Position numbers and translations under genes: made by a program
Assembly (NCBI GenBank): GCA_029820945.1
Contig: JALGUJ010000003.1
Span: forward strand, 1 to 64,000
Direction of reading: 5' to 3'
Length of the DNA stretch: 64,000 nucleotides
Source: Candidatus Zipacnadia bacterium
GTDB taxonomy: Bacteria; Armatimonadota; Zipacnadia; Zipacnadales; UBA5352
Shown here: piece by piece, positions 9,537-61,593 of the stretch
Layout of the letters: the number at the start of each line of letters is the position of its first letter
How positions within the stretch are numbered: position 1 is the stretch's first letter
Notes under the pieces: generated by a model
What the model saw: only the letters and a program-made list of their open reading frames with translations
What the model was told of the DNA's origin: nothing
Databases searched by the model: none

Positions 9537-12107
9537 GTGCCATCGCTCACCACCGAGTTCATCGGGCTCTCGCTGCGAAGCCCGATGATTGCCGGCTCAG
9601 CAGCCATCACCAAGGACCTCGAACAGATGCGGCGAGCCGAGGACGCCGGCGCGGGCGCCGTCGTCATGAAGGGCTTCTCCGACATCGTTGAGATGCGGAC
9701 CTCACCCGCCCCCCGGTACCGCATCATCGAGCACGAGCTCGCCGCTCGCGACGCATTCACCTTCTACTCCTACGAGCAGGCCAGCGCCTTCGACGCGCAC
9801 GAGTACGCCGAGGAGGTGGCGCGCGCCGTCGAGGCGCTCTCCATCCCCGTCATCGCGAACATCGACTGCCAGACGCTCGAGAGCTGGCTCGAGACCACAG
9901 CGATCATCGCCGAGGCCGGGCCCGCCGCGCTCGAGATTAACGTCTCCTGCCCGCACGGCTCGATCGCGTTCAGCGGCCAGGACGTGGAGCGACGCATCCT
10001 CGAGGTCGTGGCGGCGGTGCGGAAGCAGATCTCGCTCCCGCTCGTGGTGAAGCTGACGCCGCAGCTCACGTCACCGATGAGCTTCGTCGCGGCCATCGAG
10101 GAGATCGGCGTCGAGGCCGTGACCATGTTCAATCGCTTCACGGGCCTGGAGGTGAACGTCGAGTCCGGACGGCCGGTCATGCATGGGGGCTATGCCGGCC
10201 ACGGCGGGCCATGGTCGCGCAACTTCGTGCTGCGCTGGGTGAGCGCCATCGCGCCCACGACCTCGCTGCAGATCAGCGCCAGCGGAGGCGTCTCAGAGCC
10301 TGAGCACGCGCTCGCCTACGTGTTGGGCGGCGCGGACACCGTCCAGGTCTGCACCGGCATCTACATGGAGGGCTGGGACATCCTCACGCGGCTCAACGCT
10401 CAGCTCCTCGAGTTCATGGTGCAGCAGGGGGTCGAGACGCTCGACGAGATCCGCGGGAGCCTCACCGACCGCATCGTCGCGCTGGAGGACGTGGACCGCC
10501 GGCACCTGATTGTGGCGGAGATCCAGCCCCGGGGCACGCCGCCCTGCCGGTGGGAGTGCCCGATCAACGAGGATGTGCAGGGCTACCTCGACCTCATTGC
10601 CCAGGGGAAGTATGACCACGCCCTGCGGCTGATCAAGCAGAACCACCCGTTTCCAGGGGTGCTGGGTCGATGCTGCCACCACCCATGCGAGACGGCCTGC
10701 ACGCGTAGCGAGGTGGATGACCCGATCGCGATCGCCGCGCTGAAGCGCTTCGCGGCGGACCACGGCGGCCGCTACCTGCCGGAGACACCGGCACCGCCCG
10801 CCTGGGAAGACGAGCGGGTCGCCATCGTCGGCGCCGGTCCCGGCGGACTCACGGCCGCGTACCGACTGGCGCTGATGGGCTACCGCTCCACGGTCTTCGA
10901 GCGACTACCGGTGCCAGGCGGCATGCTGTCCGTGGGGATCCCCGAGTATCGCCTGCCGCGCGCGGTGGTCGAGCATGAGATCGGGGAGATCGAGTCCCTG
11001 GGCGTAGAGATTCGGACCGGCGTGTCGATCGGCCAGGACCTCACTATCGACGACCTGCGGGAGCAGGGCTACTCGGCCGTGCTGCTGTGCGTCGGCGGGC
11101 ACCGGCAGCGCAAGCTGGGTGTGCCGGGCGAGGACCTGGCGGGTGTCATCGATGGCGTGAGGCTCCTGCGCGAGCACAACCTCGGCGAGGACGTCGCGCT
11201 CGGCCCCCACGTAGTCATCATCGGCGGCGGCGACGTCGCGGTGGACAGCGCCCGGGTGGCCGCCAGGCTGACGGAGCGCGTGACCCTCGTCTACCGCCGG
11301 CGCTTCGAGGACATGCCGGCCCGCCGCGAGGAGGTCGAGGAGGCGCTGGAGGAGGGTGTGGAGCTGCTCGATCAGCTTCAGCCAACCGAGATCCTGGGAG
11401 AGGACGGGCGGGCGACGGCGGTGCGCTGCGTGCACACGCGGCCCACCGCGGCCGGCGTCGATGGGCGCGTGGGCTTCGGGCTGATCGAGGGCTCGACGGA
11501 GACCATCGACTGCGACACGGTGGTGGTCGCCATCGGCCAGCTTCCCGACATCGCATGGCTCAAGGCGTTGGGCCTCCATAAGTTGTGCTCGGGCGACAGA
11601 GTGGCGGCCGACCCCGAGACCGGTGCAACCTGCGAGGCGGATATCTTCGCCTGTGGTGACTGCGTCACCGGTCCTGGGCCGCTGGTCGAGGCGGTGGCGG
11701 CGGGAAAGCGAGCGGCCTTCACCATCGCCGCCTTCCTGCGCGGTGAGGAGATGGCGCCACCGGAGCCGGCGCTGGAGCCGGTCGAGCCCGAGGACGTGAT
11801 CCGCGACAGCGAGCCGATCGTGCTGACGCGACGCCAGCGCATGTCCCGGCGGCCGGCTGAGCAACGCGTTCGCGACTTCGACGAGGTCGCGCTGGGCCTC
11901 CCCGAGGAGATCGCGCGGGCTGAGGCGCAGCGCTGCATGGACTGCGGGCGGTGCGGGAACTGCGGTGACTGCATGCGCGTCTGTCCGTGGCGAGCCATCG
12001 AGCGCGTCGATGATGTCATGCAGGTCGATCCGGAGGCGTGCGATAGCTGCGGCCTGTGCGTGCTGATCTGCGCCCAGAAGGCGATTGAGCTGGTGGATCG
12101 GGGGTAG
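9537..12107 (+). CDS. Fusion flavoprotein: DHODH-like FMN domain, GltD-like Fer4_20/FAD-NAD(P) module, C-terminal two [4Fe-4S] ferredoxin domain
   Basis: FMN barrel LSLRSPMIAGSAAITKD...EINVSCPHGSIAF...ISASGGV...GGADTVQVCTG; CRWECPINEDVQGYLDLIAQGKYDHALRLIKQNHPFPGVLGRCCHHPCETACTR; FAD VAIVGAGPGGLTAAYRLALMGY; NAD(P) VVIIGGGDVAVDSAR; CGNCGDCMRVCPWRAI...CDSCGLCVLICAQKAI. GTG start inferred. Confidence 0.9.
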   Translation: MPSLTTEFIGLSLRSPMIAGSAAITKDLEQMRRAEDAGAGAVVMKGFSDIVEMRTSPAPRYRIIEHELAARDAFTFYSYEQASAFDAHEYAEEVARAVEALSIPVIANIDCQTLESWLETTAIIAEAGPAALEINVSCPHGSIAFSGQDVERRILEVVAAVRKQISLPLVVKLTPQLTSPMSFVAAIEEIGVEAVTMFNRFTGLEVNVESGRPVMHGGYAGHGGPWSRNFVLRWVSAIAPTTSLQISASGGVSEPEHALAYVLGGADTVQVCTGIYMEGWDILTRLNAQLLEFMVQQGVETLDEIRGSLTDRIVALEDVDRRHLIVAEIQPRGTPPCRWECPINEDVQGYLDLIAQGKYDHALRLIKQNHPFPGVLGRCCHHPCETACTRSEVDDPIAIAALKRFAADHGGRYLPETPAPPAWEDERVAIVGAGPGGLTAAYRLALMGYRSTVFERLPVPGGMLSVGIPEYRLPRAVVEHEIGEIESLGVEIRTGVSIGQDLTIDDLREQGYSAVLLCVGGHRQRKLGVPGEDLAGVIDGVRLLREHNLGEDVALGPHVVIIGGGDVAVDSARVAARLTERVTLVYRRRFEDMPARREEVEEALEEGVELLDQLQPTEILGEDGRATAVRCVHTRPTAAGVDGRVGFGLIEGSTETIDCDTVVVAIGQLPDIAWLKALGLHKLCSGDRVAADPETGATCEADIFACGDCVTGPGPLVEAVAAGKRAAFTIAAFLRGEEMAPPEPALEPVEPEDVIRDSEPIVLTRRQRMSRRPAEQRVRDFDEVALGLPEEIARAEAQRCMDCGRCGNCGDCMRVCPWRAIERVDDVMQVDPEACDSCGLCVLICAQKAIELVDRG

Positions 12108-12191
12108 CCCGGCCGCCGTCCGCCCATCAGGATCCCAGGGACTACCCCCGACGCGACAGCGCCCCCAATCCGTTCAGGAGGCCCGGAGGGG

Positions 12192-12662
12192 CTAGCCCGG
12201 CCACTCGCCGGAGAGGACCCGCTGCCAGCGGTGGACGGCGCGCTCCTGGAGTTCGGTCTGTATCGAGCCCGGACGCACGCGGCGAACCCGGTCGATGGCC
12301 TCCTCCGCCCCCATGCCCCTGCTGACCAGGTAGCAGGCGATCATGGTGCCGGTCCGCCCGAGCCCCGCGAGGCAGTGCGTCCCCACGCCGACGCCGCCGC
12401 GCACCGCCTGGTCGACGAACTCCACGTAGCGCTCGATCTGCTCGGTCTCCGGCGGCGTCATGTCCTCCACGGGCAGGTGCAGCACACGGAACCGCCGGGC
12501 CGCCGCCAGCTCACGCGGTAGCTCCTCCGTCAGCGACACGATGGCCCCGATGCCCTCCTCCGCGAGGAAGTCGAGATCGCGGAGGGCCAGAGCCGAGAAG
12601 GCCGCCAGCTCGCCCTCGATCACCCAGTCCACCTGGTAGGCCCAGGCACGGTCATTCGGCAT
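12192..12662 (-). CDS. Dual-specificity protein phosphatase
   Basis: C-terminal part of the long ORF contains HCLAGLGRTGTMIACYLVSRGMGAEEAIDRVRRVRPGSIQT (HCxxGxxRTG P-loop). Start MPNDRAWAYQVDWVIEGELAAF chosen at 12662, overlapping the upstream gene by 11 bp. Confidence 0.85.
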   Translation of the reverse strand: MPNDRAWAYQVDWVIEGELAAFSALALRDLDFLAEEGIGAIVSLTEELPRELAAARRFRVLHLPVEDMTPPETEQIERYVEFVDQAVRGGVGVGTHCLAGLGRTGTMIACYLVSRGMGAEEAIDRVRRVRPGSIQTELQERAVHRWQRVLSGEWPG

Positions 12663-13572
12663 CGGATTCGTGCTGCTCCTTGGAACGCCTGGCGGCCTCG
12701 GCTGCGAGCCCGTCGGCGCGCTGGTTCTCCTCGCGAGGCACGTGTACGCAGTCAAACTCGTCGAGCCTGGCAATGAGTTTGCTCGCCCGGCGATACAGGG
12801 GTCGGAGATGCCCGGCCTTGACGCGGTACTCTCCGGTGAGCTGTCTGACCACGAGCTGACTGTCCATACGCGCCTGCAGCCGGCGGACGCCCTGTCGCTG
12901 GGCCTCGTGCAGGCCCATGATGAGCGCTCGGTACTCGGCGACGTTGACGGTCGTGGGCGGGAGGGGCACCGAGCCCTCCGCGAGCGTTTGCCCGGTAACG
13001 GTCTCCAGCACAAAGCCTGCTCCGGCCGGACCGGGGTTGCCCAGCGACGCCCCGTCGGAGTAAAGCACCGCCTCGGCCACCTCGCCCGCCCGCGGCTGTC
13101 GCTCCAGCGAGACCTCCCGTGCGCCCTCGAAGCGCACCGTGCGACAGGCGCCGCGCAGAGGCTCCAGCCCCTCCGTGACCCGCGCGACGACGACTCCAGG
13201 CCGCCACCCCTGTGGCGTGAGCGGACGGCCCCGGTCGCCGTAGAAGACCGCCACCGTCGCGCCGGTGGCGCGCGGCTCGCCCCCCAGGTCCTCCTCATCG
13301 ACCGGGGGCGGCAGCAGCAGCACCTCGCCCGGCGCGGGCCGGTCGGTCTCGTTCTCGACCGGGATCTGCCCGCCCCGCGGCTCGCCGTGGCGCTCGGGCA
13401 CGTGGACGATGACGGCGGGGCCGGCGTAGATCGCGTGCACGGCTCTTCCCACGAAGGGCGTCGCGAGCAGCCCCCAGAGCAGGTCCGATGCCCCGGGGGC
13501 GGCATCGTCGCAGAGCCGGGCGCGGGCCTCAGTCTGCAGGTCGCGAAAGCTGATCCGGATCAGGCGGCTCAT
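12652..13572 (-). CDS. DUF3830 (cyclophilin-like) domain fused to RNase HI-type domain
   Basis: N-term MSRLIRISFRDLQTEARARLCDDAAP...VENETDRPAPGEVLLLPPP...VAVFYGDRGRP resembles DUF3830; C-term YSDGASLGNPGPAGAGF, NVAEYRALIMGL, MDSQLVVRQLTGEY, ENQRADGLAAEA carry the RNase H D/E/D/D residues. Confidence 0.8.
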   Translation of the reverse strand: MSRLIRISFRDLQTEARARLCDDAAPGASDLLWGLLATPFVGRAVHAIYAGPAVIVHVPERHGEPRGGQIPVENETDRPAPGEVLLLPPPVDEEDLGGEPRATGATVAVFYGDRGRPLTPQGWRPGVVVARVTEGLEPLRGACRTVRFEGAREVSLERQPRAGEVAEAVLYSDGASLGNPGPAGAGFVLETVTGQTLAEGSVPLPPTTVNVAEYRALIMGLHEAQRQGVRRLQARMDSQLVVRQLTGEYRVKAGHLRPLYRRASKLIARLDEFDCVHVPREENQRADGLAAEAARRSKEQHESDAE

Positions 13573-47604: not shown

Positions 47605-47756
47605 CCACGACCCGCATCGCCAGCCACCTCGCCCACCTCGCCGCGCCGCCGGCCGACTGATCCGCCACCGCCGTCGTCTCTGCGGAGGCGGCCCCGCTCC
47701 GGGCGACGAAGTCCCACGTGAACCGGGCTATCCGCAGTGCCGACGGAGTGATCGAC

Positions 47757-50117
47757 GTGAATGGCCTGAGATCGGCTGCGATGCTCAGCCTCGTGCTGCT
47801 CGCGGCAAGCGCCGCGCTCGCCGTCACCGTGGTCGCCCCCGGAGAGGAGCCGCTGCCCGTCGTGCTCGCATCCGACGCCATCCCCGCCGAGCAGACCGCG
47901 GCGGAGGAGCTGGCGTCCTACCTCGGACGCATCGCGGGCCGCGAGTTCGAGGTCATCGTTGAGGGAGAGGTCGGCGACGGAGCCGGCATCTTCGTCGGCC
48001 CGACCGCGCGCGCGGCCGAGCTGGGCATCGACCACCGTGCGCTCGGGCCGGAGGAGTGGGCGGTCCGGACTGCCGGCGACGACCTGATCGTGGCCGGCGG
48101 GCGGCCGCGCGGCACGCTCTACGCCGCCTACCACCTGCTCGAGGATGTGCTGGGCGTGCATTGGTGGACGCCCTGGGACGAGAGCGTTCCGAGCATCCCG
48201 ACGATCGACCTCGGCGAGCTCGATCTGCGCGGAGAGCCCGTGCTGCAGTACCGCGACATCTACCGCGTCTACGGCTATGACGAGGGCCGGTTCGCCGCGC
48301 ACAACCGGCTGAACCGCATGGGCGACCCGCCGATACACGCGCGGTACGGCGGGGGCATGGACTACGGACCGCCCTACCACGTGCACACGTTCTATCTCTA
48401 CTTCCCGCCCGACCAGTACTTCGAGGATCACCCCGATTGGTACTCGCTCATCGACGGCAAGCGCAACGCGGAGCGCAAGCAGCTCTGCCTGACCAACCAG
48501 GAGCTGCGCGAGGCGTTCCTGGGGAAGCTCCGGGCCTTCATCGAGGAGAGCCGCAAGCAGGCGGCCGAGCGCGGCGGCCCGCCCCCTCGCGTGTTCTCGG
48601 TCTCGCAGAACGACTGGCGGGGCGCCTGCCAGTGCGAGAGCTGCCAGGCCATCGTTGAGCGCGAGGGCTCCGAGGCCGGACCGCTGCTGGACTTCGTGAA
48701 CTTCCTCGCGGACGGGATCGCGGAGGACTACCCCGACGTCTACCTGAGCACGCTGGCGTACCAGTACACCCAGCAGCCGCCGACGAGCATCCGCCCGCGC
48801 GAGAACGTCATCGTGCGCCTGTGCGACACCACGAGCACATTCACGCGCGCCATCACCGACCCCGAGAACGAGCAGTTTCGCGACATTCTGCTCTCGTGGG
48901 CGGAGATTGCGGACAACCTGCGCATCTGGGACTACGCGGTGACCTACGCCCGGCCCCGCGGACTGCCGATGCCGAGCGTGCAGACCTACGGGCCGGACTT
49001 CCGCTTCTACGCCGAGCACAACGTCGAGGGCGTCTTCACGGAGCTGGAGTTCCCGGTCAGGGCGGACATGCGCGACCTGAAGGTCTGGATGATGTGCAAG
49101 CTCCTCGAGGACCCGTACGCCGACTACGATGGGCTGCTGGCGACCTTCACCGAGGGCTTCTACGGCCCCGCCGGGCCGATGGTCCGGGAGTATCTGGCCG
49201 CGCTGCAGGCCGCCTCCGAGGCCCGTCCGAGTCACATCAGCATGGGCGCGTCGCTGCCGTCGTACGGCACCTACCTGACGCTCGAATTCGTGCGGCACGC
49301 GCACGCGATCTTCGACCGCGCCGAGGCGGCGGTGGCGGACGAGGAGACGCTCCTGCAGCGCGTTCGCCACGCCAGGATGCCGCTCGACCGCGCGACGGTG
49401 ATGCTGGCGCGGCCGCTCTCGCGCGAATGGGTGCAGCGGGGGAACGACCCGGCGGAGCTGCCCTTCGAGCGCCAGGCCATCGGCGAACGCTACAGCGCAA
49501 CGTGGCTGGCGGAGGTGGAGCGGCGGCTGCCCGAGTCACAGCGCGCGCAGTCGCGGGCCGAGCTGGAGGAGGAGTTGACGCGATACACGGCGCTGCCCGA
49601 GTTCGTACCGCTGCCGGAGAAGTTCGCCGACGTGCCGCCCGAGCGCGTCTTCGACTTCACCGCGGATCAGTCGCGGAACTGGAAGGACATCGTGAAGGTG
49701 GTGCGCGACGAGGAGGCGGAGAGCGGGATCACCAACCGGCTTCAGTTCCCCACGGCCATCGACACCGAGAAGCATCCGGTCGAGCGCTACGAGCTGCCCA
49801 TGCCCTGGGGCCTGTACGACGTGCGCAACAAGAAGGGGCGAGCCAGCGCCCAGATCAGGGCCGAGGACGTCCCCGGGCCGGGCTATCACTGGTACCGGAT
49901 GGGCAGCTTCGAGATCGGGCCCTCCTACTACCTGTACTTCTTCTGGAGCTGGATCATCCAGGTAGACATCGACTCCGCGTGGGACGCCGAAAGGCCCGAC
50001 CGGGAGTTCGAGATCTGGGCGCGGATCAAGTTCGAGGGGCCGGCCTTCCCGCACGGTGACGAGGCCGACGCGAACGCCATCTGCGTGGAGCGCGTGGTGC
50101 TGGTGGGGCAGGAGTAA
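47757..50117 (+). CDS. Secreted DUF4838 protein (alpha-glucuronidase N-like/GH20b-like)
   Basis: Signal AAMLSLVLLAASAALA; LASDAIPAEQTAAEELASYLGRIAGREFEV...TAGDDLIVAGGRPRGTLYAAYHLLEDVLGVHWWTPWDESVP; ACQCESCQAIVEREGSEAGPLLDFVNFLADGI. GTG start inferred. Confidence 0.88.
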   Translation: MNGLRSAAMLSLVLLAASAALAVTVVAPGEEPLPVVLASDAIPAEQTAAEELASYLGRIAGREFEVIVEGEVGDGAGIFVGPTARAAELGIDHRALGPEEWAVRTAGDDLIVAGGRPRGTLYAAYHLLEDVLGVHWWTPWDESVPSIPTIDLGELDLRGEPVLQYRDIYRVYGYDEGRFAAHNRLNRMGDPPIHARYGGGMDYGPPYHVHTFYLYFPPDQYFEDHPDWYSLIDGKRNAERKQLCLTNQELREAFLGKLRAFIEESRKQAAERGGPPPRVFSVSQNDWRGACQCESCQAIVEREGSEAGPLLDFVNFLADGIAEDYPDVYLSTLAYQYTQQPPTSIRPRENVIVRLCDTTSTFTRAITDPENEQFRDILLSWAEIADNLRIWDYAVTYARPRGLPMPSVQTYGPDFRFYAEHNVEGVFTELEFPVRADMRDLKVWMMCKLLEDPYADYDGLLATFTEGFYGPAGPMVREYLAALQAASEARPSHISMGASLPSYGTYLTLEFVRHAHAIFDRAEAAVADEETLLQRVRHARMPLDRATVMLARPLSREWVQRGNDPAELPFERQAIGERYSATWLAEVERRLPESQRAQSRAELEEELTRYTALPEFVPLPEKFADVPPERVFDFTADQSRNWKDIVKVVRDEEAESGITNRLQFPTAIDTEKHPVERYELPMPWGLYDVRNKKGRASAQIRAEDVPGPGYHWYRMGSFEIGPSYYLYFFWSWIIQVDIDSAWDAERPDREFEIWARIKFEGPAFPHGDEADANAICVERVVLVGQE

Positions 50118-50144
50118 CGACAAAGCATCACAGGAGGGGGAAAC

Positions 50145-51298
50145 ATGTACAACCCGTTCGGCAAGCCTGTGGATGAGTTGACTGAGGACGATCTGCTGCA
50201 AACGCTACCCGGTAAGCGTGAGAGCTGGATCTACGAGTATAAGGGCCCTGACAAGCTCAAGGACATGAAGAGCATCCCCGGTCCATAGCTTCGTTTGCGA
50301 ACTGGCACGGGGGCTGGCTATTCATCGGCATAGAGGAAGGGGAGGACGGAGAACCGGTGCTCGCTGACATTCAGGGCATCCCGGCTGACGAGCAATGCCT
50401 CTCAGAACGTGTGTACCAGACATGTCATTCCAATCTCTCTCCTGCCCCGTACGTGAGCTGTGGCGAGATCCGACTTAGCTCTGGGCACTGGGTGCTCGCG
50501 ATCCACATCCCGCAGAGCCCGAACCCGCCCCACATCATGATGAGCAGCGGAAGAGTACACGTGCGCTCAGGCAACACGACGAACCCCGTTAGCGTGGTCA
50601 AGGACCGCGGTGAACTTGACAGGCTCTATGAAAGAGCACGTGAGAACAGGGAAGGAGTCCAAGCGCTGCTCGACGCGCACGGAAGGGGTAGGAGCTTCCT
50701 TGAGGAGGTGGTTCAGAACGCTCGCCGCTATCAGCAGGAGGAGATCACGCCCATTGCAGCTTTCTGCCTCCTCGCCTACCCTGAGACCCGCCTACCAGAG
50801 CTCCTCGCGTTCTCGTCAGCGATTCCCCCGACTACAGACATCGCGAACCGCATCTTCAACGAGGCAGACGAGCCAGCACGAAGCTGGGCCAGGTACGTTG
50901 GTGGGACCGGCAGCACGAAGTGGCTGGACCACCATCGCTGTCAAACGATCAGCGCCCGATTCGGTAGCTTGTTCTATGTTGATCGCTTTGGCCAGGTTGC
51001 CCATGCCCAGTTCACCGCGATGCTGCACGCCCTCACAGGCAGCCCGGACCCCATATGTGCTCAGGAATGCGCCGATCAGCTAGAAGGTTTCGCTGCGGGG
51101 GTTGAATTCGTGTACCGCGAATGGGGCTACCTCGGGCCTGTAACGCTGATGTGTCGCATGCAACTTGCAGACGGAAGTCAACGCCCGCCTGTCCAGTTTA
51201 GCGCGGCTGCACTGGAATTGGCAGACACGGCAAGATGCATCCACAACGACGTCTTGCGTGACCTGCGACGACTCGCGGGCCTGAATGACGTCGGATAG
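50145..51298 (+). pseudogene. AlbA_2/Schlafen-type putative DNA-binding protein, frameshifted
   Basis: Strong SD (caggaggggg) then ATG 50145: MYNPFGKPVDELTEDDLLQTLPGKRESWIYEYKGPDKLKDMKSIPGP stop TAG 50286-50288; the other frame continues SIASFANWHGGWLFIGIEEGEDGEPVLADIQGIP (AlbA_2 signature) to 51298. Confidence 0.75.
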
Positions 51299-51384
51299 CA
51301 CTTACTCAAGGCACGTACCCCTGGGCCGTTCGCCCTGGCTCAATGATGTGCTTGGCTAGCTGGGACACGCTTGCGACGGTCTCG

Positions 51385-53655
51385 TTACTGCTGCAGGGCC
51401 TGCTTCATGCTCACGATCGCCGCGGCCAGCCCGTCGCGCGCCTCATCTACGGCACGCACGTCCAGCGTGTAGGGCTCATCGTTCGCGCCACGCACCGACG
51501 GCCAGCGCTCGACCAGCGACAGGGCGGCGTCAAGGGCCTCGCGCCCGACCGCAGCGGCGTCGGCCCTTCCTGCGTCCTCGAGTTGCCGCGCGAGGTCATC
51601 TGCCAGGGCCATGTACTCGTAGTCCTCCAGGCCCTCGCGGAACAGCTCCCAGCGGATCGAGTCGATGGGCGTGGGCTCGTCGGGCGCGCGCGGCGGATAG
51701 AGCAGCACGCCGGAGCTCCCGACGCCCGCCGTCCACGGGTCTTCGACCTCGCCGCGCCAGCAGACCGTGCCCCACCACGAGTAGGTGCCGTCCACCGCGT
51801 ACTTGCGCAGCAGCCAGGGCCAGAGGCGGACGCGGATGGGCCGGTGGTCGGGGTAGTTCACCGCGTTGTTGTAGACCAGGATCCGGTCGCCGTCCGCCCT
51901 CGCAGCCTCGATCTTCGGCACGGCCCGGTCCCAGGAGTCGGTGTGCAGGATCCAGACGTGCGTGACGTCCAGCAGCTCCGCGGCGGGGGCGCTGACGGTC
52001 TGCGCGATGCGCAGCTCCGGCTCGACGTTCAGGAGCAGCTCGCTCAGCGCCCGGATGCCGTTGCGGGTCGGCTCGTGGTTAAGCCTGGGCTCGTCGATGA
52101 ACCGCACGGTCGGCTCTTGGAAGAGATCGGCGTCCCTGAGCGCGGTGCAGAGCTTCGTGATCCAGTCGCGGAAGGGCCGCTCGAACTGCGGGTTGAGCTG
52201 CGTCAGCGCGTCGTTGGCGAAGATGGGGATGCCCTGCCACTGCGCGTCGCGGGGCATGATGTGCTCGCCGCCATGGCCAATCCAGAGGGCCGGGAGGTCG
52301 AAGCGGCGCGCGCCCAGCTCATCGCGCATGAAGGCGAGGTGCTCGAGGTACTCCTCGAGGTCCACCGTCACGCTGTCGCCCTGCACTTGCGGCTTCGGGA
52401 CCACGCCGGGCGCGCAGCGGCTGCGATGATCGTAGAAGTCCTGGTAGTAGCGCGCCAATACCATGTCCGGGTCGCCGCTCTCGCGCTCGAGCACGATCCC
52501 GAAGCGGAAGCCGGAGCGCACGTCGATGGTGGGCCGCTCGGGGATGAGGAAGTCATGTACGTGCAGGCGCAGCGGCACGGCGCAGACCTCATCGCCGGCC
52601 GCCGTCAGCGCGACCTGGCCCTCGTAGTCGCCCGGCTCCTGGTCGCGCGGCACGTGGAGTGTGAACCAGAAGCCCTGGTTGTGGCCGGCGGGGATGTCAA
52701 CGGGAAGACGCTCCGTCAGCGGGTCGGGGTTAAGGCCCTTGTGACCGTAGGGGCCCATCGGCCGCTGGATGTCCACCGTCTCGATCAGGCGGCAGTGCAG
52801 GTGCTCGCCCGACAGCGTCGCGGGACCTGCCAGATCTCCCCAGGTGAAGGCGACATTGCGCGCCCCACCGGTCGGCGTAACCGCGACCTGGAAGGACTCG
52901 TACTCGCCGAGCGCTGCGGACAGCTCGATGGCCTGCAGCGGCTCGCCCGTGGGCAGGTCGCGGTCCGGCAGGATCTTGCGGTTCTCGCTGTCGGTCCACA
53001 GGACGCCGCCCGGGAACTGCCGCAGCACGCGCGCCGTGTCCTCGATCTCCCGCGGCTTGCGGCCCACGACGATGACGTCATCGATCCACGCGCGGCAGCC
53101 GGGCACCTCAGTCACCAGCTTGATCAGCAGCGAGACGGCCTGCTCGCCCTCAGGGGCGATGAAGTCGCCCACGTCGGCGCGCACCCAGCCCCGCTCGTCG
53201 GCGCCGCCCACCCACTCCCCCGCCACGAACTCGCCGCGCCGGTCATGCGGCACGGTGACCACCGGCCGATAGAGCAGGCTCTCCATCTCTCGCTCGCCGA
53301 CCGGATAGCGGACGAAGCAGGTGATGCGGCTGGGCCCGCCCTCGGCGCGGTAGTGCAGGCTGAGGCTGTAGACGCCACCGGGCTCTACGGGGACCACCGT
53401 GCTCCAACCGCCGTTGAGGCCCTCGAGGCCGAGGCTCCGGGAGCCGCTGTGGGCCTGGTCATCGGCCCACCAGCCGCGCGAGTCCTGCCACGAGTAGAAG
53501 CCCCACTCGGCCGGCTCGCCGGCCGCGCCCTCCTCGAAGCTCGGGTTCGGCGCGAGGCTCTCGACCGCGGCTTCCTGCGCCCCCGCCCGGCAGCCGGCCA
53601 GCAGCGCCAGGCCGAGGGCGGCGATGGCGGCACACGCGATAGCGGCCCTGGACAT
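51385..53655 (-). CDS. DUF4091 (GH123-like) lipoprotein with N-terminal CBM-like domain
   Basis: Lipobox MSRAAIACAAIAALGLALLAGC; NPSFEEGAAGEPAEWGFYSWQ; VHVPRDQEPGDYEGQVALTAAG; SIRWELFREGLEDYEYMALADDLARQLE (DUF4091). Confidence 0.85.
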   Translation of the reverse strand: MSRAAIACAAIAALGLALLAGCRAGAQEAAVESLAPNPSFEEGAAGEPAEWGFYSWQDSRGWWADDQAHSGSRSLGLEGLNGGWSTVVPVEPGGVYSLSLHYRAEGGPSRITCFVRYPVGEREMESLLYRPVVTVPHDRRGEFVAGEWVGGADERGWVRADVGDFIAPEGEQAVSLLIKLVTEVPGCRAWIDDVIVVGRKPREIEDTARVLRQFPGGVLWTDSENRKILPDRDLPTGEPLQAIELSAALGEYESFQVAVTPTGGARNVAFTWGDLAGPATLSGEHLHCRLIETVDIQRPMGPYGHKGLNPDPLTERLPVDIPAGHNQGFWFTLHVPRDQEPGDYEGQVALTAAGDEVCAVPLRLHVHDFLIPERPTIDVRSGFRFGIVLERESGDPDMVLARYYQDFYDHRSRCAPGVVPKPQVQGDSVTVDLEEYLEHLAFMRDELGARRFDLPALWIGHGGEHIMPRDAQWQGIPIFANDALTQLNPQFERPFRDWITKLCTALRDADLFQEPTVRFIDEPRLNHEPTRNGIRALSELLLNVEPELRIAQTVSAPAAELLDVTHVWILHTDSWDRAVPKIEAARADGDRILVYNNAVNYPDHRPIRVRLWPWLLRKYAVDGTYSWWGTVCWRGEVEDPWTAGVGSSGVLLYPPRAPDEPTPIDSIRWELFREGLEDYEYMALADDLARQLEDAGRADAAAVGREALDAALSLVERWPSVRGANDEPYTLDVRAVDEARDGLAAAIVSMKQALQQ

Positions 53656-53744
53656 GCCTCTCTCACGCTCCTCCACGTCTCGCGAGGCGGACGGCGCATG
53701 GGCCGCGGGTGGGTCGATCTCGCCGGCCTGTACGCGCGACCGGC

Positions 53745-54701
53745 TCAGCGGACCTCGAACCGCAGAGCCGCGTCGAGCACCCAGGCCCAGAAGCCGCCGC
53801 CCTCGAGCGTCCGTCCCTCGTCCATGTTGTCGTGGAAGCTCTCCTCGGTCACGTTCAGCCGGCAGATGTACTCCCCCGGAGGCAATCGCAGCGAGCCGAC
53901 CCCCGGCCGGTCAGGCTCCCACTCGCCGAAGAGGCCGATGCTCTCGATGGCGCCCGCCTCAGTCGCCTCGTAGCCGTAAGCCAGACGGCGCAACTCGTAC
54001 CAGCGAGGTGGCCCGTCGCGGTACCCGCGCTCCCTCTGCCCCACCCGCCAGAGCACGTGCAGACTGCTGTCGAGCGCGAACTGGTGCTCGGCGCCGCCAT
54101 GTCCATCGGTCACGAACCAGTCGAAGAGCAGGTACCCGCGCACCGAGTGCCCGGCCTCCAGATGCCGGGCCAGCTCCGCGTCGGGCACGTTCCACCGGCA
54201 GTCCTCGCACCACCAGCGTCCCAGGTGGCCGAGCTGCCAGCTCGACCAGGTCCGCGCATCCTGCGCGTTGTCCTCCTCAAGCGCGCCGCTGATGGGCTTC
54301 GCGCCCACCAGCTTGAGCTGGTAGGCGAACCAGGGCTTGAGGCCGCAAGCGCGCACAGCGCCCTGTAGCGTCGGGGCCGGGGAGTGGTACCGCACCTCGA
54401 CGCGGCGCCGGTCGGCGTCGGCGTAGTCAAAGTCGGCGCGCAAGGCCTCCGCGTAGGGCACGCCCGCTATGTCGCGCCAGCGTTGCCGCTGAGGGGCGTG
54501 CATCTGCACTGGCGCAAGCGTCTCCTCGCTGGTCTCGCCGACCATGACTCTCGCCTCATCGGTGCCGGGCTCCGGGATATGCTGGCGCGGGAGGGTGGAA
54601 CACCCCGCGGTCAGCGTAATCCAGACGAGGAGCGCGGCCGGCCCACAAAGAGCCGGCTGCCGCGCCCGGCGGAAGCCCCCATCTCTGTTCGTGGGACTCA
54701 T
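53745..54701 (-). CDS. Lipoprotein of unknown function
   Basis: Lipobox LLVWITLTAGCSTLP; conserved-looking WWCEDCRWNVPDAELARHLEAGHSVRGYLLFDWFVTDGHGG. Confidence 0.6.
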   Translation of the reverse strand: MSPTNRDGGFRRARQPALCGPAALLVWITLTAGCSTLPRQHIPEPGTDEARVMVGETSEETLAPVQMHAPQRQRWRDIAGVPYAEALRADFDYADADRRRVEVRYHSPAPTLQGAVRACGLKPWFAYQLKLVGAKPISGALEEDNAQDARTWSSWQLGHLGRWWCEDCRWNVPDAELARHLEAGHSVRGYLLFDWFVTDGHGGAEHQFALDSSLHVLWRVGQRERGYRDGPPRWYELRRLAYGYEATEAGAIESIGLFGEWEPDRPGVGSLRLPPGEYICRLNVTEESFHDNMDEGRTLEGGGFWAWVLDAALRFEVR

Positions 54702-54820
54702 GGTTCATCCCCACCGCGCTGAGGACCCCGGAGGTGGCTCGAGCGCGCCCGCTGCTCCCCTGTACGGTCAGACGCGCGAGCATGTTGCCCGCGCGTGTGC
54801 GTCACGTGAACACGCCCGGC

Positions 54821-55447
54821 CTACTCGCTGGGCTGCGAGGGAACCCAGGCAATGGCGTTATCCACCTGCTGCTCCTTGGCCCACTTCACGTGTCCGTCCA
54901 CGAAGCCCCAGATGACGCCATCGTTATGCCGTTGCGGCCAGTTGTTGCCGGTGAAGCTGTTGTCGTCCGGCGCGCCGCAGATGTCGTTGCCGATGTCGTT
55001 GACGTACCAGTCACCATCGGTACCGGTCTTCCCATTGGCGCCGATCGCCTCGGGCCGCACGTCACCGCACAGCACCTTGACAGAGGGATCCCAGAAGTTC
55101 CCGAGGCCTTGGCCGGAGGCCAGGAAGCTCATGCCGTATCCGGGCCCCTTGTCCTTGCGGTCCGGGCAATACAGGATCTGGCGATTACGCGTGTATGGGA
55201 AGATCGCGTTGTACCACTGCGAATCGGGCTCGCCGGCCGCAGCCTGCCCCGCCGGGAGGATCTCGTCGAAATCCTGAGCGTACATGTTCATGGCGAGACA
55301 GAGCTGCTTGACGTTGGAGATGCAGGCGGCCTGTCTTCCCTTGCCCCTCGCTCGGGAGAATACGGGGAACAGGATGGAGGCCAGGATTGAGATGATCGCT
55401 ATGACGACCAGAAGCTCGATGAGAGTAAAACCTGTGCGCTTGTGCAT
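54821..55447 (-). CDS. Type II secretion/DUF1559-like pseudopilin
   Basis: MHKRTGFTLIELLVVIAIISILASILFPVFSRARGKGRQAACISNVKQLCLAMNMYAQDFD; C-term RHNDGVIWGFVDGHVKW. Confidence 0.92.
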   Translation of the reverse strand: MHKRTGFTLIELLVVIAIISILASILFPVFSRARGKGRQAACISNVKQLCLAMNMYAQDFDEILPAGQAAAGEPDSQWYNAIFPYTRNRQILYCPDRKDKGPGYGMSFLASGQGLGNFWDPSVKVLCGDVRPEAIGANGKTGTDGDWYVNDIGNDICGAPDDNSFTGNNWPQRHNDGVIWGFVDGHVKWAKEQQVDNAIAWVPSQPSE

Positions 55448-55606
55448 TGAGGACGCCTCCTTCGGCTTCACGCCCCCGAACGGGACGCGATGGTGCTGCC
55501 ACCTGGAATAACAAACACAGTGCGCGCCAACAAGTTTCGCCGCGGCGCAGCAAATGCCTCCGTACGGGCCCGCTCTCGCCGCTTCGGGCGATTCGTCACG
55601 CGGCCA

Positions 55607-58321
55607 TCAGCCGGCGGCGGGCGCCGACTCGACCACGAGCGTGACATCGCAGGGATAGCGTCCCGCGCGCGAGCTGTATACCGCGAGCCCGCCCCTGTCC
55701 GCCCCCGAATCCTCAGACGCGATACGCACCGTCACGATTCCATCCGCGGCGGCCGCCGCCGCTCTCTCGGCCGAGAGGTCCACCCGCACAAGCTGCCCGT
55801 ATCGCCCCAGCAGCCCGTGCATGTGTGACAGCGCGCCGCGGGAGTCGGCCGGCTGGTTCGGCAACGCGAGTACCGCGGCCTCCGCACGGCCGATCGCTAT
55901 CCGCGCCCTGGACGGCCAGCGTTCCGCTTCGGTCTGCGGCGCCCCGGCGCGCGCGCTGGACAGCTCCACGAGCAGGTGCAGGGCCGCGATGCGCCTCGGA
56001 TCGAGGTCCTCGGGCAGATCGAAGCTGTACTCCACCGAGCCGTCGCCCAGTCCCGCCAGGAGGTGGACGTCGCCCTCGACCTCGCCGCGCTCGATGTCAC
56101 CCTCGAAGGCGGCGTCGCAGTCGCCCGCAGTCTTGCGCAGCACGACGGCGCCATCCTGGGACGCCGCATGTTCGCCGACGACCTCAAAGAAGCAGAAGTT
56201 CATCGCCGCCGGCCTGCCCCGCCCGTCGTCAAGCACGGCCTCGACGCGGGCGAGGCCGGGCTCGTCGGGCAGCGTCAGCTCGATCGCGGCGGAATCGCCG
56301 CTAACGGCCGCCGGTCTGGTCCTGCGCACCAGGGCGCGCGCGCGGCCGAGACGGCCAGTGAAGGTGGCGCTCCAGCGCACGCGCCGGGCAAGCTCGGCCG
56401 CACGCGCGGACGGCCGCAGAAAGACCGGGACCGTCACGCGGTCGCCGGGCGCAGCCGTGCGCGCGGGCGGGCAGTCGAAGCCCACGAACAGCTCCCCGAG
56501 GATCAGCGCCGGATGGTAGCCGAACTGCTTCGGGGAGCGATCGTAGTTGTAGAGCCCGTTGTGCTCCCACTCGATGTCCGTCAGCTCGGTGTAGACGTAG
56601 CCGCAGATCTCCTCATGCTTGCGCAGCTCGTTGGTGAGGAAGAGCAGGCACCAGGAGACGTCGAGGTCGCCCATGCGCGCTGAGATGCCCCCGTACTCGC
56701 TGTTGAGCAGCGGCTGGCCGCCCTGGCGGCTGCCGCCGGCGAAGTTGAACTGCGAGCCCGGATGCGTCTGCTCCACGACCTCCTCGATGTGCTCCCGCGC
56801 CTGGTCGTAGTCGTTGAGGTAGAAGTGCCAGCTATTGATGTCGGTGACGATGTGGTCGCGCAGGCAGGCCGAGTTGTCCTCCACAAGCCGCGTCGAGTCC
56901 ATCTCGCCGGTGGCCTCATAGCACTCGCGCACCCACTGCTGTCGCTCCGGCATTTGAGCGTACTCGCGACCACCCAGGCCCCAGGTCTCGTTGAAGAGGC
57001 ACCAGGCGATGATGCTCGGGTGGTTGAAGTCGCGCGTCATGGTCCCGCGGAGGTTACGCTCCCAGCGGTCCCTCGCCAGCTCCGAGTAGCCGTCATAGCC
57101 GAAGTTGGGCATATCGCACATCAGCAGAATGCCCACACGGTCCGCCCAATAAAGGTAGCGGGGGTCGGGCGTCTTGACGTGCAGCCGGAGGAAGTTGAGC
57201 CCGGCCTCGCGGGCCAGGACCAGGTCGCGCCGGATGGCGGCATTGCTGGGATGCGTGTAGACCCCCTGCGGATGGAAGCTCTGATCCAGCGCCCCGCGCA
57301 GATAGATTGGCTCCCCATTCAAGCGGATGTATGCCGGCCCATCCTCGCCCAGAGGGCCGACATCGACGTCGCGCATGCCGAACTGCGTGTGCACCTCGTC
57401 GATAGCCCGGCCGCCCTGCAGGAGCCGCACGCGCAGCCGGTACATGTGAGGGCTTTCTGGTGCCCAGGGGATGGGGGCGCGGATGTGCGCGCTCAGTCGC
57501 ACCTGGCCGTGATCGTCCAGCGGCACGGGGCCAAGCTCGGCCACGGTCAGGCCCGTCGAGGTGCGCACGGCGGCGGCGACGGCCAGGTCCGCGGCGCCCT
57601 CGGGCACGTGAGTTCTGACTGTAACGGTCGCAAGCCCCCCGGCCAGGTGCGGCTGCACCTGAATGGCATCGATGTGCGCGGCCGCCCGCGGCTCAAGCCA
57701 CACCGTCTGCCAGATGCCACTCGTGGGCGTATACCAGCTCGGCACCTGCTTGCCCAGCGGCTTGCGGCTCTCGTCCTGGGGGTCGTGCACGCGGATGACG
57801 AGGGTGTTCTCACCCCCAACCAGCGCATCCGTGACATCGAAGCTCACGGGCAGGTAGCCGCTCTCCGCCTCCCCGACCGGGACGCCGTTGACCCAGGCGC
57901 GCAGCTCCCAGTCCGCGGCGCCGACGTTCAGGAAGACGCGGTGGCCCTGCCACCGGGCGGGCACGATGAACGAGCGCCGGTACCAGCCAACGGTCTGCCG
58001 CGGCGCCTCGCGGTAGTTCTCGACGGTGACCGAGGTCGGGTCCAGGTAGGCCTCGCGGCTGAACCAGCAGCCGTTGCCCGCCTGTTCCCCGGTCCCCCAC
58101 GCCAGGTGGCTCTCCCACGGGAAAGGCACCACGATGGTGCGCGGGAAGCTCTCTGCGCCGCTCTCGTGCAGGCCCCGGGCGGGCCCGCGGTCATCGGGAT
58201 CAAAGCTGAACTGCCACGGTCCGTTAAGGTTCAGCCAGTCGATGCCGGGCCGCAGGCCACGGTGGAAGTCGGGCCGCGGGTGTTCAGGACGTGGCACAGC
58301 ATGGCTGCCGGGACGGCTCAT
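55607..58321 (-). CDS. Glycoside hydrolase family 2 enzyme
   Basis: GIDWLNLNGPWQFSFDPDDRG...VPFPWESHL...WYRRSFIVPARWQGHRVFLNVGAADWELRAWVNGVPVGEAESGYLPVSFDVT...LRLHVKTPDPRYLYWADRVGILLMCDMPNFGYDG...HPSIIAWCLFNETWGL. Confidence 0.93.
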   Translation of the reverse strand: MSRPGSHAVPRPEHPRPDFHRGLRPGIDWLNLNGPWQFSFDPDDRGPARGLHESGAESFPRTIVVPFPWESHLAWGTGEQAGNGCWFSREAYLDPTSVTVENYREAPRQTVGWYRRSFIVPARWQGHRVFLNVGAADWELRAWVNGVPVGEAESGYLPVSFDVTDALVGGENTLVIRVHDPQDESRKPLGKQVPSWYTPTSGIWQTVWLEPRAAAHIDAIQVQPHLAGGLATVTVRTHVPEGAADLAVAAAVRTSTGLTVAELGPVPLDDHGQVRLSAHIRAPIPWAPESPHMYRLRVRLLQGGRAIDEVHTQFGMRDVDVGPLGEDGPAYIRLNGEPIYLRGALDQSFHPQGVYTHPSNAAIRRDLVLAREAGLNFLRLHVKTPDPRYLYWADRVGILLMCDMPNFGYDGYSELARDRWERNLRGTMTRDFNHPSIIAWCLFNETWGLGGREYAQMPERQQWVRECYEATGEMDSTRLVEDNSACLRDHIVTDINSWHFYLNDYDQAREHIEEVVEQTHPGSQFNFAGGSRQGGQPLLNSEYGGISARMGDLDVSWCLLFLTNELRKHEEICGYVYTELTDIEWEHNGLYNYDRSPKQFGYHPALILGELFVGFDCPPARTAAPGDRVTVPVFLRPSARAAELARRVRWSATFTGRLGRARALVRRTRPAAVSGDSAAIELTLPDEPGLARVEAVLDDGRGRPAAMNFCFFEVVGEHAASQDGAVVLRKTAGDCDAAFEGDIERGEVEGDVHLLAGLGDGSVEYSFDLPEDLDPRRIAALHLLVELSSARAGAPQTEAERWPSRARIAIGRAEAAVLALPNQPADSRGALSHMHGLLGRYGQLVRVDLSAERAAAAAADGIVTVRIASEDSGADRGGLAVYSSRAGRYPCDVTLVVESAPAAG

Positions 58322-58500
58322 GATGTCACTCCCGCATCGTCGTCCGGGACCCTAACGACCCGCCGAGTGTTAGTAACGCCACTGACCCGCACCGGGGCGC
58401 GGGGCGTGAGCGCGATAGACGTTCCCCCATGCGCTCTCCGGAACCTCCTCTGGTGAAAGGCGAGGGAGAATCGCATTCCCGAGGAGGAGTCGGGGGCGCG

Positions 58501-58506: not shown

Positions 58507-58583
58507 AAAATGAATGTACACTGGCTCCCGATCGGTCTTCGCGGGGGTGCTCGTCGCTCCAGAGCCGGGCGCGGATGGTTGCC

Positions 58584-58973
58584 ATGGACGATCGCGTGAG
58601 ACAGTTCATCGAGGAGATCGCGCAGGACCTGGTGGGTCTGGACGTCGCTCTGTTCTACCAGGCTAATCCGCGGGCGTTCGACACGGCCTCGGGGATAGCG
58701 CTTCGTACCCACCGCTCCCTGAAGGACGTCGAGCCGGCTCTGCAGCGGATGAGCGAGCGGGGCTACCTTGAGGTGCTCTCCCGCGGCGACGGCCGCTACC
58801 AGGTCTTCGCGCTATCACCGGCGCCTGAGGTCTGGCGCACGCTCTGCCACGTCAGCGAGGCCTACCACGAGGATCCCGAGGCCCGCAAGGAGATCATCCT
58901 GATGCTGGTGCAGCGGCGGCTTCAGCGCCGCACGGCGGGGCAGAATACGGGGGGGAGTGGACCCGATGGCTGA
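58584..58973 (+). CDS. Small winged-helix-like regulatory protein
   Basis: MDDRVRQFIEEIAQDLVGLDVALFYQANPRAFDTASGIALRTHRSLKDVEPALQRMSERGYLEVLSRGDGRYQVFALSPAPEV: helix-turn-helix then beta-wing pattern. Stop overlaps the next start by 8 bp. Confidence 0.7.
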   Translation: MDDRVRQFIEEIAQDLVGLDVALFYQANPRAFDTASGIALRTHRSLKDVEPALQRMSERGYLEVLSRGDGRYQVFALSPAPEVWRTLCHVSEAYHEDPEARKEIILMLVQRRLQRRTAGQNTGGSGPDG

Positions 58974-61593
58974 GCTGGTTGGCACCGGCATCGGCGGCCT
59001 GGACACCATCCTGGGAGGGGGGCTGCGTCAGGGCTCCTGCACGCTGCTGGAGGGCATCCCCGGCACCGGGAAGACCACCATCGGCCTCTGCTTCCTCTAC
59101 CACGGCGCCGCGAACGACGGCGATCCCGGCATCGCCATCACCTTCGAGCAGTTCCCCCAGCAGATGGTGGACGATGCCGCCCAGTTCGGCTGGGACATCC
59201 CCGCCCTCGAGCGCCAGGGGCTCATGCGCATCATGTGCACCTCGCCCGATGTCTTCCTCGACCAGCTCAGCGAGGTGGGCGGGGTGGTCGATCGGCTGGT
59301 CTCCGAGATGGGCGCGAGGCGGGTGCTGATCGACAGCGCCTCGCACCTGGCCCAGATCAGCGAGGATCCGAGCAAGCTACGCGCGCTCTTCTACAGCATG
59401 ATCAACGGCCTCAAGCGCGCCGGCCTGACCACGATCGTCACCAAGGAGCTCGAGTCCCCGGAGGTGGCGCAGATCCCGTTCGAGGAGTACCTCTGCGACA
59501 CCGTCGTGCGGCTCGATAATGTGATGGTGGGGGGCTTCCGGCGCCGCCGCTACATCGAGGTCGTGAAGTCGCGCGGGCAGGCCCACCGGCTCGGGCGGCA
59601 CGGCTTCGAGCTCGGCCCTGAGGGCCCGAAGGTCTACCCCCGCTACCACGCTGAGGCCAGCATGGCCGCCGAAGCCTGCCCGGTGCGGAAGCTGACCACC
59701 GGCGTGGAGGGCCTCGACCGCATGCTCGCCGGGGGATTGCTGGTGGGCAGCTCGACGCTGGTGGCGGGGAGCGCCGGCGTGGGCAAGACCACGCTGGGCC
59801 TGCAGTTCATCTGCGAGGGGGCGGCCCACGGCGAGCCGGGCGTCTATGTGACCTTCGAGGAGTCGCCCGCGAAGCTCGCCTGCCAGGCCGCGGGCTTCGG
59901 GCTCGACCTCGAAGGGTTACGCGAGAGCGGCATGGTGACCGTAGTCCACGAGCTGCCGACCACGGTCCGGCTTGAGAAGCTGCTGCTGCAGTTGGCCGAT
60001 GAGATCGACCGCATCGGCGCGACGCGGCTGGTCTTCGACAGCCTGACCGATCTCGACATGGCCTTCGCCGATGAGGACAATGTGCGCGAGGCGGTCTACA
60101 ACCTGGTGAGCATGCTCGCCGCCCGGTGCGTCACCAGCATCGTGGTCAGCGAGGTGCCCGAGCTGTTCGGCCAAACCTACGTCACCGCCGAGCACCTCTC
60201 CATCATCGTGGACGGCATTATCCTGATGAAGTACCTGGAACTCGAGAGCGAGATCCAGCGCGCCGTCTCCGTGCTGAAAATGCGCGGCTCCGAGCACGAC
60301 ACCGGCATCTGGCGCTATGTCATCGAGAGCCAAGGGATTGACGTGCTGAGCCGGTTCGAAGGCGCGGAGGGGCTGATGGTGGGGGCCGCGCGCACCACCA
60401 GCATCGCGCTGTCGGTGCGCAGCTTTAGCGAGTTCGACGAGCAGCTCAACGCCGAGCTGCTGGAGCGCTTCTCGCAGATTCACCCCAACGTCTCCCCCGT
60501 CTCCTTGAACCTGCCGTACAACCCCGACGAAGCGCTGGAGACGATCCGCACGGCGCTGCGGGCGGAGACCACCCAGCTCTCAGTGGCACCGATGTGCCTG
60601 TACTGGACCCCGGAGGTCGTGGCGACGGGCAGGCTGCGCGAACTCGATGATCTCCTCTCCGCCGAGGAGATCGACCAGCACATGGCCGAGGTCGTCGAGC
60701 CGGGGACCGGCGATGGTCACCTCTATGGCATTCCCGCCATCGCGCTCTGCGGCGCCCTGCTGTATCGGCGCGACCTGCTGGACAAGCACGGCTTCCAGGC
60801 GGCGCCGATCACCTGGGAGGAGCTCATCGAGCAGGCGAGCAAGGTGCTCGCCGATGAGGGTCGCGACGACCTCATCGGCTTCCAGTTCCCGGCCTACATG
60901 TATGAGGGTCTGAGCACCTCCTTCCTGACGAACCTGTGGAGCAACGGCGGCTCGGTCGTGGGCGAGGGCGGGCGATGCGCGCTCGACAGCGAGGCCGCAC
61001 TGGAGGCCCTCCGCTTCATCCGCTCGCTCATACACGAGCACGGCATCACGCCGCAGACTGTGACCGGCTACAACGGCGGGCTCGAGCCGCAGCAGGACTT
61101 CATCGAGGGCCGCACGCTCTTCCTCTATATGCTCCCCAGCGTGCTGCAGGAGGTCAACCGCCCTGACAGCCCGCTGCTGGGCAGGGCCGGGCTGGCCGGC
61201 CCGCCGCATGGGCCGCGCGGCGACCGTGGCTACAGCTTCCTGGGCGGCTGGCACTTCGGCATCCCCGTCAACGCCAAGGCCCCCGTGGCAGCGGGGCAGT
61301 TCATCCAGTTCATGACCAGCAGCGAGGTGCAGAAGGAGCGGGCCGTGCGCGGGGGCCCGCTGCCCACCATCAGCAACCTCTACCGCGACCCGGAGGTCCT
61401 GGCCTTCAACCCCCACTATCCGATCGTCTACGAGCTAATCCGCAGCGCGCGCAAGCGCCACGAGATCCCCAACTACCTGCAGGTCTCTCGCCTTATGCAG
61501 CAGCACCTGCATCCGGTGCTGACCGGCGACGCGGAGCCCGAGGCCGCTTTGGACGAGCTGTACGGCAAGGTCCGCGGGCTTATCGAGCAGTAG
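58966..61593 (+). CDS. Tandem KaiC/RAD55-like ATPase fused to a family-1 extracellular solute-binding-protein domain
   Basis: KaiC1 GIGGLDTILGGGLRQGSCTLLEGIPGTGKTTIG, RVLIDSASHL; KaiC2 GVEGLDRMLAGGLLVGSSTLVAGSAGVGKTTLG, RLVFDSLTDL, IILMKYLELESEIQRAVSVLKMRGSEHD; SBP LYGIPAIALCGALLYRRDLLDKHGFQAAPITWEELIEQASKVL...FIEGRTLFLYMLPSVLQEV...GWHFGIPVNAKAPVAAGQFIQFMTSSEVQKERAVRGGPLPTISNLY. Confidence 0.9.
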   Translation: MAELVGTGIGGLDTILGGGLRQGSCTLLEGIPGTGKTTIGLCFLYHGAANDGDPGIAITFEQFPQQMVDDAAQFGWDIPALERQGLMRIMCTSPDVFLDQLSEVGGVVDRLVSEMGARRVLIDSASHLAQISEDPSKLRALFYSMINGLKRAGLTTIVTKELESPEVAQIPFEEYLCDTVVRLDNVMVGGFRRRRYIEVVKSRGQAHRLGRHGFELGPEGPKVYPRYHAEASMAAEACPVRKLTTGVEGLDRMLAGGLLVGSSTLVAGSAGVGKTTLGLQFICEGAAHGEPGVYVTFEESPAKLACQAAGFGLDLEGLRESGMVTVVHELPTTVRLEKLLLQLADEIDRIGATRLVFDSLTDLDMAFADEDNVREAVYNLVSMLAARCVTSIVVSEVPELFGQTYVTAEHLSIIVDGIILMKYLELESEIQRAVSVLKMRGSEHDTGIWRYVIESQGIDVLSRFEGAEGLMVGAARTTSIALSVRSFSEFDEQLNAELLERFSQIHPNVSPVSLNLPYNPDEALETIRTALRAETTQLSVAPMCLYWTPEVVATGRLRELDDLLSAEEIDQHMAEVVEPGTGDGHLYGIPAIALCGALLYRRDLLDKHGFQAAPITWEELIEQASKVLADEGRDDLIGFQFPAYMYEGLSTSFLTNLWSNGGSVVGEGGRCALDSEAALEALRFIRSLIHEHGITPQTVTGYNGGLEPQQDFIEGRTLFLYMLPSVLQEVNRPDSPLLGRAGLAGPPHGPRGDRGYSFLGGWHFGIPVNAKAPVAAGQFIQFMTSSEVQKERAVRGGPLPTISNLYRDPEVLAFNPHYPIVYELIRSARKRHEIPNYLQVSRLMQQHLHPVLTGDAEPEAALDELYGKVRGLIEQ

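Follow-up and report, generated by a model that had tools for sequence, protein, structure and literature searches.

The KaiC protein of cyanobacteria is a tandem-domain ATPase with a pair of Walker A motifs, catalytic glutamates and a dual phosphorylation site (S431/T432), and KaiA acts on its A-loop. In archaea, KaiC proteins are proposed to be signalling hubs and carry lineage-specific sensor fusions, such as KaiC-REC and HalOD1-KaiC (PMC5847659), and in the case of Haloferax CirA/CsmR a KaiC homologue has been proposed to tune a transcription factor (PMC13286277). The signals which feed KaiC hubs are largely an open question. Substrate-binding proteins (SBPs) such as MalE3, TMBP and alphaGBP, the nearest relatives of the domain described below, bind alpha-disaccharides (PMC12096829). 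Lobe closure and binding have been linked to the Asp70 position, a stacking Trp and a hinge Arg, both in these SBPs and in LpqY (PMC7949145, PMC12096829), and Arg404 of LpqY is required for trehalose binding (PMC7949145).

The window, by which we mean the whole stretch of 64,000 nucleotides of Candidatus Zipacnadia DNA analysed here, encodes a double KaiC which continues into an SBP, directly preceded by a gene for a winged-helix protein. With cyanobacterial KaiC the fusion shares the tandem domains, the Walker A pair, the catalytic Glu and the equivalent of S431 (Z about 41 over 450 residues), whereas no KaiA or KaiB was detected in the genomes, T432 is replaced by Ile or Val, and an SBP stands where the KaiA-binding tail would be. 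Like the archaeal hubs, it would combine hub use of KaiC with a sensor domain confined to a narrow lineage and a functional link to a transcription factor (PMC5847659, PMC13286277); unlike them, it is bacterial, has gained an entire SBP and has its MarR-like partner encoded directly upstream. An earlier note on this DNA knew of no described family with a KaiC-SBP architecture, and this holds provisionally, as we found no description of such a fusion with a MarR-like partner in the searchable literature and the paper on the Zipacnadia genomes makes no mention of KaiC. KaiC hubs with sensor fusions are known, while the combination of KaiC-SBP and MarR-like partner is apparently new, a provisional statement. 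A whole, structurally predictable ligand receptor at the KaiA site makes the question of what feeds a KaiC hub testable at the bench.

Architecture of the KaiC-SBP protein

One open reading frame on the forward strand (58966-61593) encodes, without internal stop, a protein of 875 amino acids (P0001). Its start may be GTG 58957 or ATG 58966, with GGGGGGGAG 8 nt 5' of the ATG, and it ends at 61593. Pfam finds two KaiC stretches (PF06745, 7e-104) followed by SBP_bac_8 (6e-22) and SBP_bac_1 (7e-21), and the same KaiC and SBP_bac_8/SBP_bac_1 families are present in 21/21 aligned homologues. By comparison with the sequences of solved structures, residues 1-479 match cyanobacterial KaiC (E 1e-72 to 1e-83) and residues 497-874 match MalE3 (E 1e-52) and TMBP (E 1e-48). 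In an AlphaFold model based on 21 homologues (pLDDT 84), residues 477-873 superimpose on maltose-bound MalE3 with Z 47.1 and an rmsd of 2.3 Å over 387 residues, and residues 1-474 on KaiC with Z about 41, and by this comparison the two-lobed SBP fold is complete. Pfam, structure alignment and full-length relatives thus agree with the earlier note, which had read this frame as two RecA/KaiC domains followed by an intact SBP.

The layout given in that note also stands, with refined limits. The CI domain comprises residues 1 to about 228 (58966-59649, forward strand; Walker A GIPGTGKTT, 59053-59079) and the CII domain residues about 240-463 (59683-60354, forward strand; Walker A GSAGVGKTT, 59767-59793). 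The link to the SBP (residues about 464-477, 60355-60396, forward strand) corresponds, by alignment to KaiC, to the A-loop region. It is flexible and belongs, with pLDDT below 50 at residues 467-480, to the regions modelled with least confidence. The SBP domain, of the cluster-D type, occupies residues 477-875 (60394-61590, forward strand), as assigned from the sequence and structure match to MalE3 and from Pfam in 21/21 homologues. G473 and A474 of P0001 align with residues 492-493 of the Thermosynechococcus elongatus KaiC, and the SBP starts directly after them.

SBPs of ABC importers have a two-lobed fold, an export signal and a nearby permease and ATPase; of these we recognised only the fold in P0001. 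The highest 19-residue hydropathy means fall inside the P-loop or core domains, and at the N-terminus and in the linker the maxima are 1.00 and 0.92, so that the hydropathy scan, together with the position of the SBP after KaiC, gave no indication of a signal peptide or transmembrane segment. The other SBPs checked in Zipacnadia genomes have mostly hydrophobic, lipoprotein-type leaders. Neither a BPD_transp_1 permease nor an ABC_tran ATPase was found on contig C82, which contains the window, in agreement with what the earlier note had stated for both the missing leader and the missing transporter genes.

The upstream winged-helix gene and a proposed switch

Directly 5' of the fusion, on the forward strand, lies a gene for a 132-aa winged-helix (MarR-like) protein (58575-58973), which shares 8 nt with the start of KaiC-SBP and which the earlier note had overlooked. 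A homologue is found in this position at every fused gene with upstream sequence available, and also at the SBP-less KaiC of Candidatus Zipacnadum vermilionense (G016); more distant relatives precede three SBP-less KaiCs. As the winged-helix gene is also found before SBP-less KaiCs, the regulator and the double KaiC look like an older module, to which the SBP was probably added later. The AlphaFold model of the 132-aa protein (pLDDT 91) has the winged-helix order of elements, and its top Foldseek matches are almost all MarR-family regulators (probability 1.00, E only about 1e-3). No Pfam family scored above its cut-off (MarR_2, 13.8 bits against 27, E 0.066). The protein shares a predicted fold and its size with MarR-family regulators and differs from them in lacking a Pfam match above cut-off and in lying beside a KaiC wherever seen here. 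We consider it the likely output partner of KaiC-SBP.

An operator for the winged-helix protein 5' of the two-gene unit was rejected as a candidate, since no common palindrome or conserved operator was found there. Separately, an element of the form GAAC-N15/16-GTGTT, which by its sequence resembles an ECF-sigma-type promoter, occurs once per locus and nowhere else there in five loci of family f1 (L034, L035, L036, L037 and L052), 176-222 nt 5' of where the winged-helix gene begins; in the window it is degenerate, near 58340-58370.

We favour, with roughly even confidence, the reading that the fusion is a cytosolic ligand-gated KaiC switch which acts with its MarR-like winged-helix partner on transcription. 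In this mechanism, the KaiC half would form the usual hexamer and display six SBPs from its CII face, and a small cytosolic molecule would close the SBP lobes. Closure, transmitted via the A-loop, could then change CII ATPase activity or autophosphorylation of S412 (60199-60201), the invariant counterpart of KaiC S431, and the changed hexamer would alter DNA binding by the winged-helix protein, giving a transcriptional response. We infer that the SBP acts on the A-loop, and control of KaiC by the SBP is compatible with the data because the SBP sits at the A-loop and both P-loops are intact.

Several lines of evidence argue for the switch: the architecture is present in 23 of the 46 genomes of the class, with a single gain and a single loss on the KaiC tree; purifying selection acts on the SBP, which belongs to a subfamily never seen unfused in 151 genomes of the phylum and has 47 fusion-specific positions; the winged-helix gene lies immediately 5' at all testable fused loci; the SBP begins at the KaiC A-loop; and there is precedent for KaiC homologues working with transcription factors and for lineage-specific sensor fusions (PMC13286277, PMC5847659). 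Against it stand the low confidence of the CII-SBP link, which means that mechanical coupling and relative domain placement are not predicted by the model, the lack of a conserved operator upstream, the weak Foldseek E-value (about 1e-3) of the winged-helix protein, and the loss of canonical ligand residues, which is also compatible with an SBP that has ceased to bind small molecules.

The binding pocket and its possible ligands

The fusion shares the whole SBP fold with MalE3, TMBP and alphaGBP (PDB 6dtq, 1eu8 and 6j9w; Z 46-47, 27-31% identity), together with the equivalents of TMBP W295 and R364 and the motifs YEGL and LLYxRxDLL. It differs from them in lacking a signal peptide or a transporter on the contig, in being fused to an ATPase and in having the equivalents of R49, D70, D123, W257 and Y259 replaced. 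Residue equivalences in the pocket rest on sequence alignment. By this alignment, alphaGBP R49 corresponds to A/V523 in the fusion, and the TMBP/alphaGBP Asp70 position is taken by an invariant cysteine, C544 (60595-60597, forward strand). L594, at TMBP Asp123/alphaGBP Asp118, is L, V, A or T in homologues and is followed by C595, which is Cys in 20/21 (L594-C595, 60745-60750, forward strand). M-L-P-S 722-725 (61129-61140, forward strand) replaces the sugar-stacking N-W-P-Y, such that TMBP W257 becomes L723 and Y259 becomes S725; W257 and Y259 we take to be the residues which stack on the sugar. TMBP W295/alphaGBP W287 is retained as W762 and R364/R356 as the hinge residue R831, both invariant, and we take LpqY Arg404 as the counterpart of R364/R831. 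Thus, from the residue set associated with alpha-disaccharides (R49, D70, D118/D123, W257, W287/W295 and R356/R364), the fusion retains only the counterparts of W295 and R364. Mutants of alphaGBP at R49, D118, W287 and R356 are present in the PDB, according to their entry titles.

Alongside these replacements, 47 positions are invariant in fused SBPs and rare in exported ones, and W547 in the aligned cleft is invariant, as is C544. The invariance of W762, R831, C544 and W547 suggests that the pocket is still under selection, and on the aligned residues we read the pocket as rebuilt and not simply decayed, a change which points to one of two outcomes, a new ligand or a role in protein binding. 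Judged from the same residues, the ligand is unlikely to be a conventionally bound disaccharide. Conserved cysteines at the pocket (C544 and C595) make a thiol-, metal- or redox-linked ligand a candidate. A fuller version of the switch, in which this would be the first cytosolic SBP-gated KaiC transcription switch, with an internalised receptor, a cysteine-based pocket for a thiol-, metal- or redox-linked ligand, replacement of KaiA at the A-loop and control of a MarR-like regulator in anaerobic sediment bacteria, we consider improbable as a whole. Relocation of an SBP fold from the cell surface into the cytosol, together with rebuilding of its pocket, would represent a route to intracellular sensing for which we found no described example here.

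The main alternative is that the SBP has lost small-molecule binding and acts as a rigid protein-protein arm, for example tethering the winged-helix protein or another partner to the KaiC ring. The replacement of all the R49, D70, D123, W257 and Y259 equivalents fits such an arm, as does the strict conservation of the fold and of the 47 fusion-specific positions, and the winged-helix-KaiC pair persists after SBP loss (L053, the locus of G016). The pocket Trp (W762), the hinge Arg (R831) and, in the cleft, C544 and W547 are invariant, however, and we regard the arm as possible but on the unlikely side.

A further alternative, put forward in the earlier note, is that of a cytosolic sugar sensor, in which mono- or oligosaccharide binding by the SBP gates KaiC. 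In its favour, the closest solved relatives, MalE3, TMBP and alphaGBP, bind alpha-disaccharides (PMC12096829), and there is a GH2-family glycoside hydrolase gene, in the window on the reverse strand at 55607-58297. In one f4 genome, as in the window's family, GH2 is the divergent neighbour of the unit, and in a second f4 genome it lies within 4.5 kb. In the window's family, the two-gene unit lies back to back with this gene, near a GH123-like gene and others. Elsewhere the flanks differ, with peptidase S24, glycosyltransferase 9, heparinase-like and chemotaxis genes, and the sole constant neighbour among the loci examined is the winged-helix gene. Because the flanks differ between families, the glycan-degrading neighbourhood described in the earlier note is real for the window's family, with GH2 also linked in two f4 genomes, and fails in the other families examined; it is not a property of the fusion family. 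As the sugar-binding residues are replaced, the acidic and aromatic ones by Cys, aliphatic residues and Ser, and as most other families examined have no glycan genes beside the fusion gene, a sugar ligand is not supported, and we find the sugar sensor decidedly improbable.

Two observations on the surroundings of these genes stand apart. Upstream of the unit, the window has a run of glycan-related genes (47718-58297) for DUF4838/GH67-N-like, GH123-like and GH2 proteins and a DUF1559 pseudopilin-like protein. In G042, a second double KaiC without SBP lies about 4 kb 3' of the fused KaiC-SBP (L048:11051-16664), beside genes for an MCP, a CheA-like kinase and a response regulator, possibly a KaiC-chemotaxis signalling cluster.

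The KaiC half, distribution and origin of the fusion

By its two domains, intact Walker A motifs and catalytic Glu, the fusion belongs to the KaiC ATPase family (PF06745). Across 21 homologues, the Walker A motifs of CI and CII are both invariant, as are E61 and E299; residue 62 is Q in P0001 and Q or E in homologues, and E298 is present in 19/21. I413, at the position of KaiC T432, is Ile in 18/21 and Val in 3/21, so that the S431/T432 dual phosphorylation site of KaiABC is not preserved. KaiA was found in 0/11 genomes, all draft assemblies, and no KaiB scored above cut-off in the 11 draft genomes, while the Synechococcus elongatus control was detected. The lack of detectable KaiA and KaiB, together with the Ile/Val at T432, leads us to conclude that the fusion is a KaiC ATPase and not a member of a KaiABC clock. 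A clock- or timer-like KaiC with the SBP in place of KaiA would fit the double KaiC with its intact P-loops and retained S431 equivalent, and the location of the SBP at the A-loop, the KaiA site; with KaiA in 0/11 genomes, no KaiB above cut-off and the T432 equivalent being Ile or Val in 21/21, we consider it very improbable. Two other Armatimonadota KaiCs (L066:3038-4786 and L048:14916-16664) end in related C-terminal extensions, about 67-69 residues long and containing a QPLTFI motif.

The fusion was found in 23 of the 46 genomes of the class, as one copy each, either full-length or cut by contig ends; carriers comprise 10/10 genomes of the window's family and members of f2, f3, f4, f6 and f8. 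An alignment-based scan of named genomes placed it only in Armatimonadota/Zipacnadia/WS1, uncultured and poorly known bacteria, a result which relied on exact short motifs, such that divergent fusions elsewhere could escape; with a single sequence as the query, the named-genome scan gave no match. At E <= 1e-60, no unfused member of the fused SBP subfamily was found in 151 Armatimonadota genomes. Values of dN/dS are low (0.03-0.32) and about equal in the KaiC and SBP halves, which indicates purifying selection on the SBP as well as on the ATPase.

Placing the fusion label on the KaiC tree, which has 23 fused rows, takes two changes, and we interpret these as a single gain and a single loss. 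The SBP was lost in Candidatus Zipacnadum vermilionense, whose KaiC stops cleanly at the domain border. We rejected this genome as a pre-fusion ancestor: G016 nests beside G031, its sister on the KaiC tree, which retains the SBP, and therefore the SBP was lost in G016.

The earlier note had named an assembly-induced fusion of separate genes as a caution, and this was not seen, as the homologues in 23 of the 46 class genomes are fused; the same fusion in independent genomes excludes chance or misassembly. That the protein is an annotation or assembly fusion of two genes, or that the SBP is really exported, has nothing in its favour beyond that caution and is barely conceivable, given an in-frame fusion repeated in 23 independent genomes, no leader or transmembrane segment in the fusion and an SBP subfamily never seen unfused.

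Candidates for second SBP fusions were also discarded. Frames of 805 and 836 aa are SBPs with their own leaders and no KaiC, the 805-aa frame having a permease domain, and an 839-aa frame (L079) is SBP only in Pfam, likewise without KaiC. Some KaiC genes have unusual structures. In family f11, the SBP-less KaiCs at L072:2932-5089 (G046) and L073:2723-4895 (G060) have a CII-like part which also matches a second overlapping frame, as if these genes were split or frameshifted. In G017, the KaiC-SBP gene (L049) spans both ends of contig C49 (12,726 bases), at 10664-12724 and 5-550, and C49 may therefore be a circular contig or the product of a collapsed assembly.
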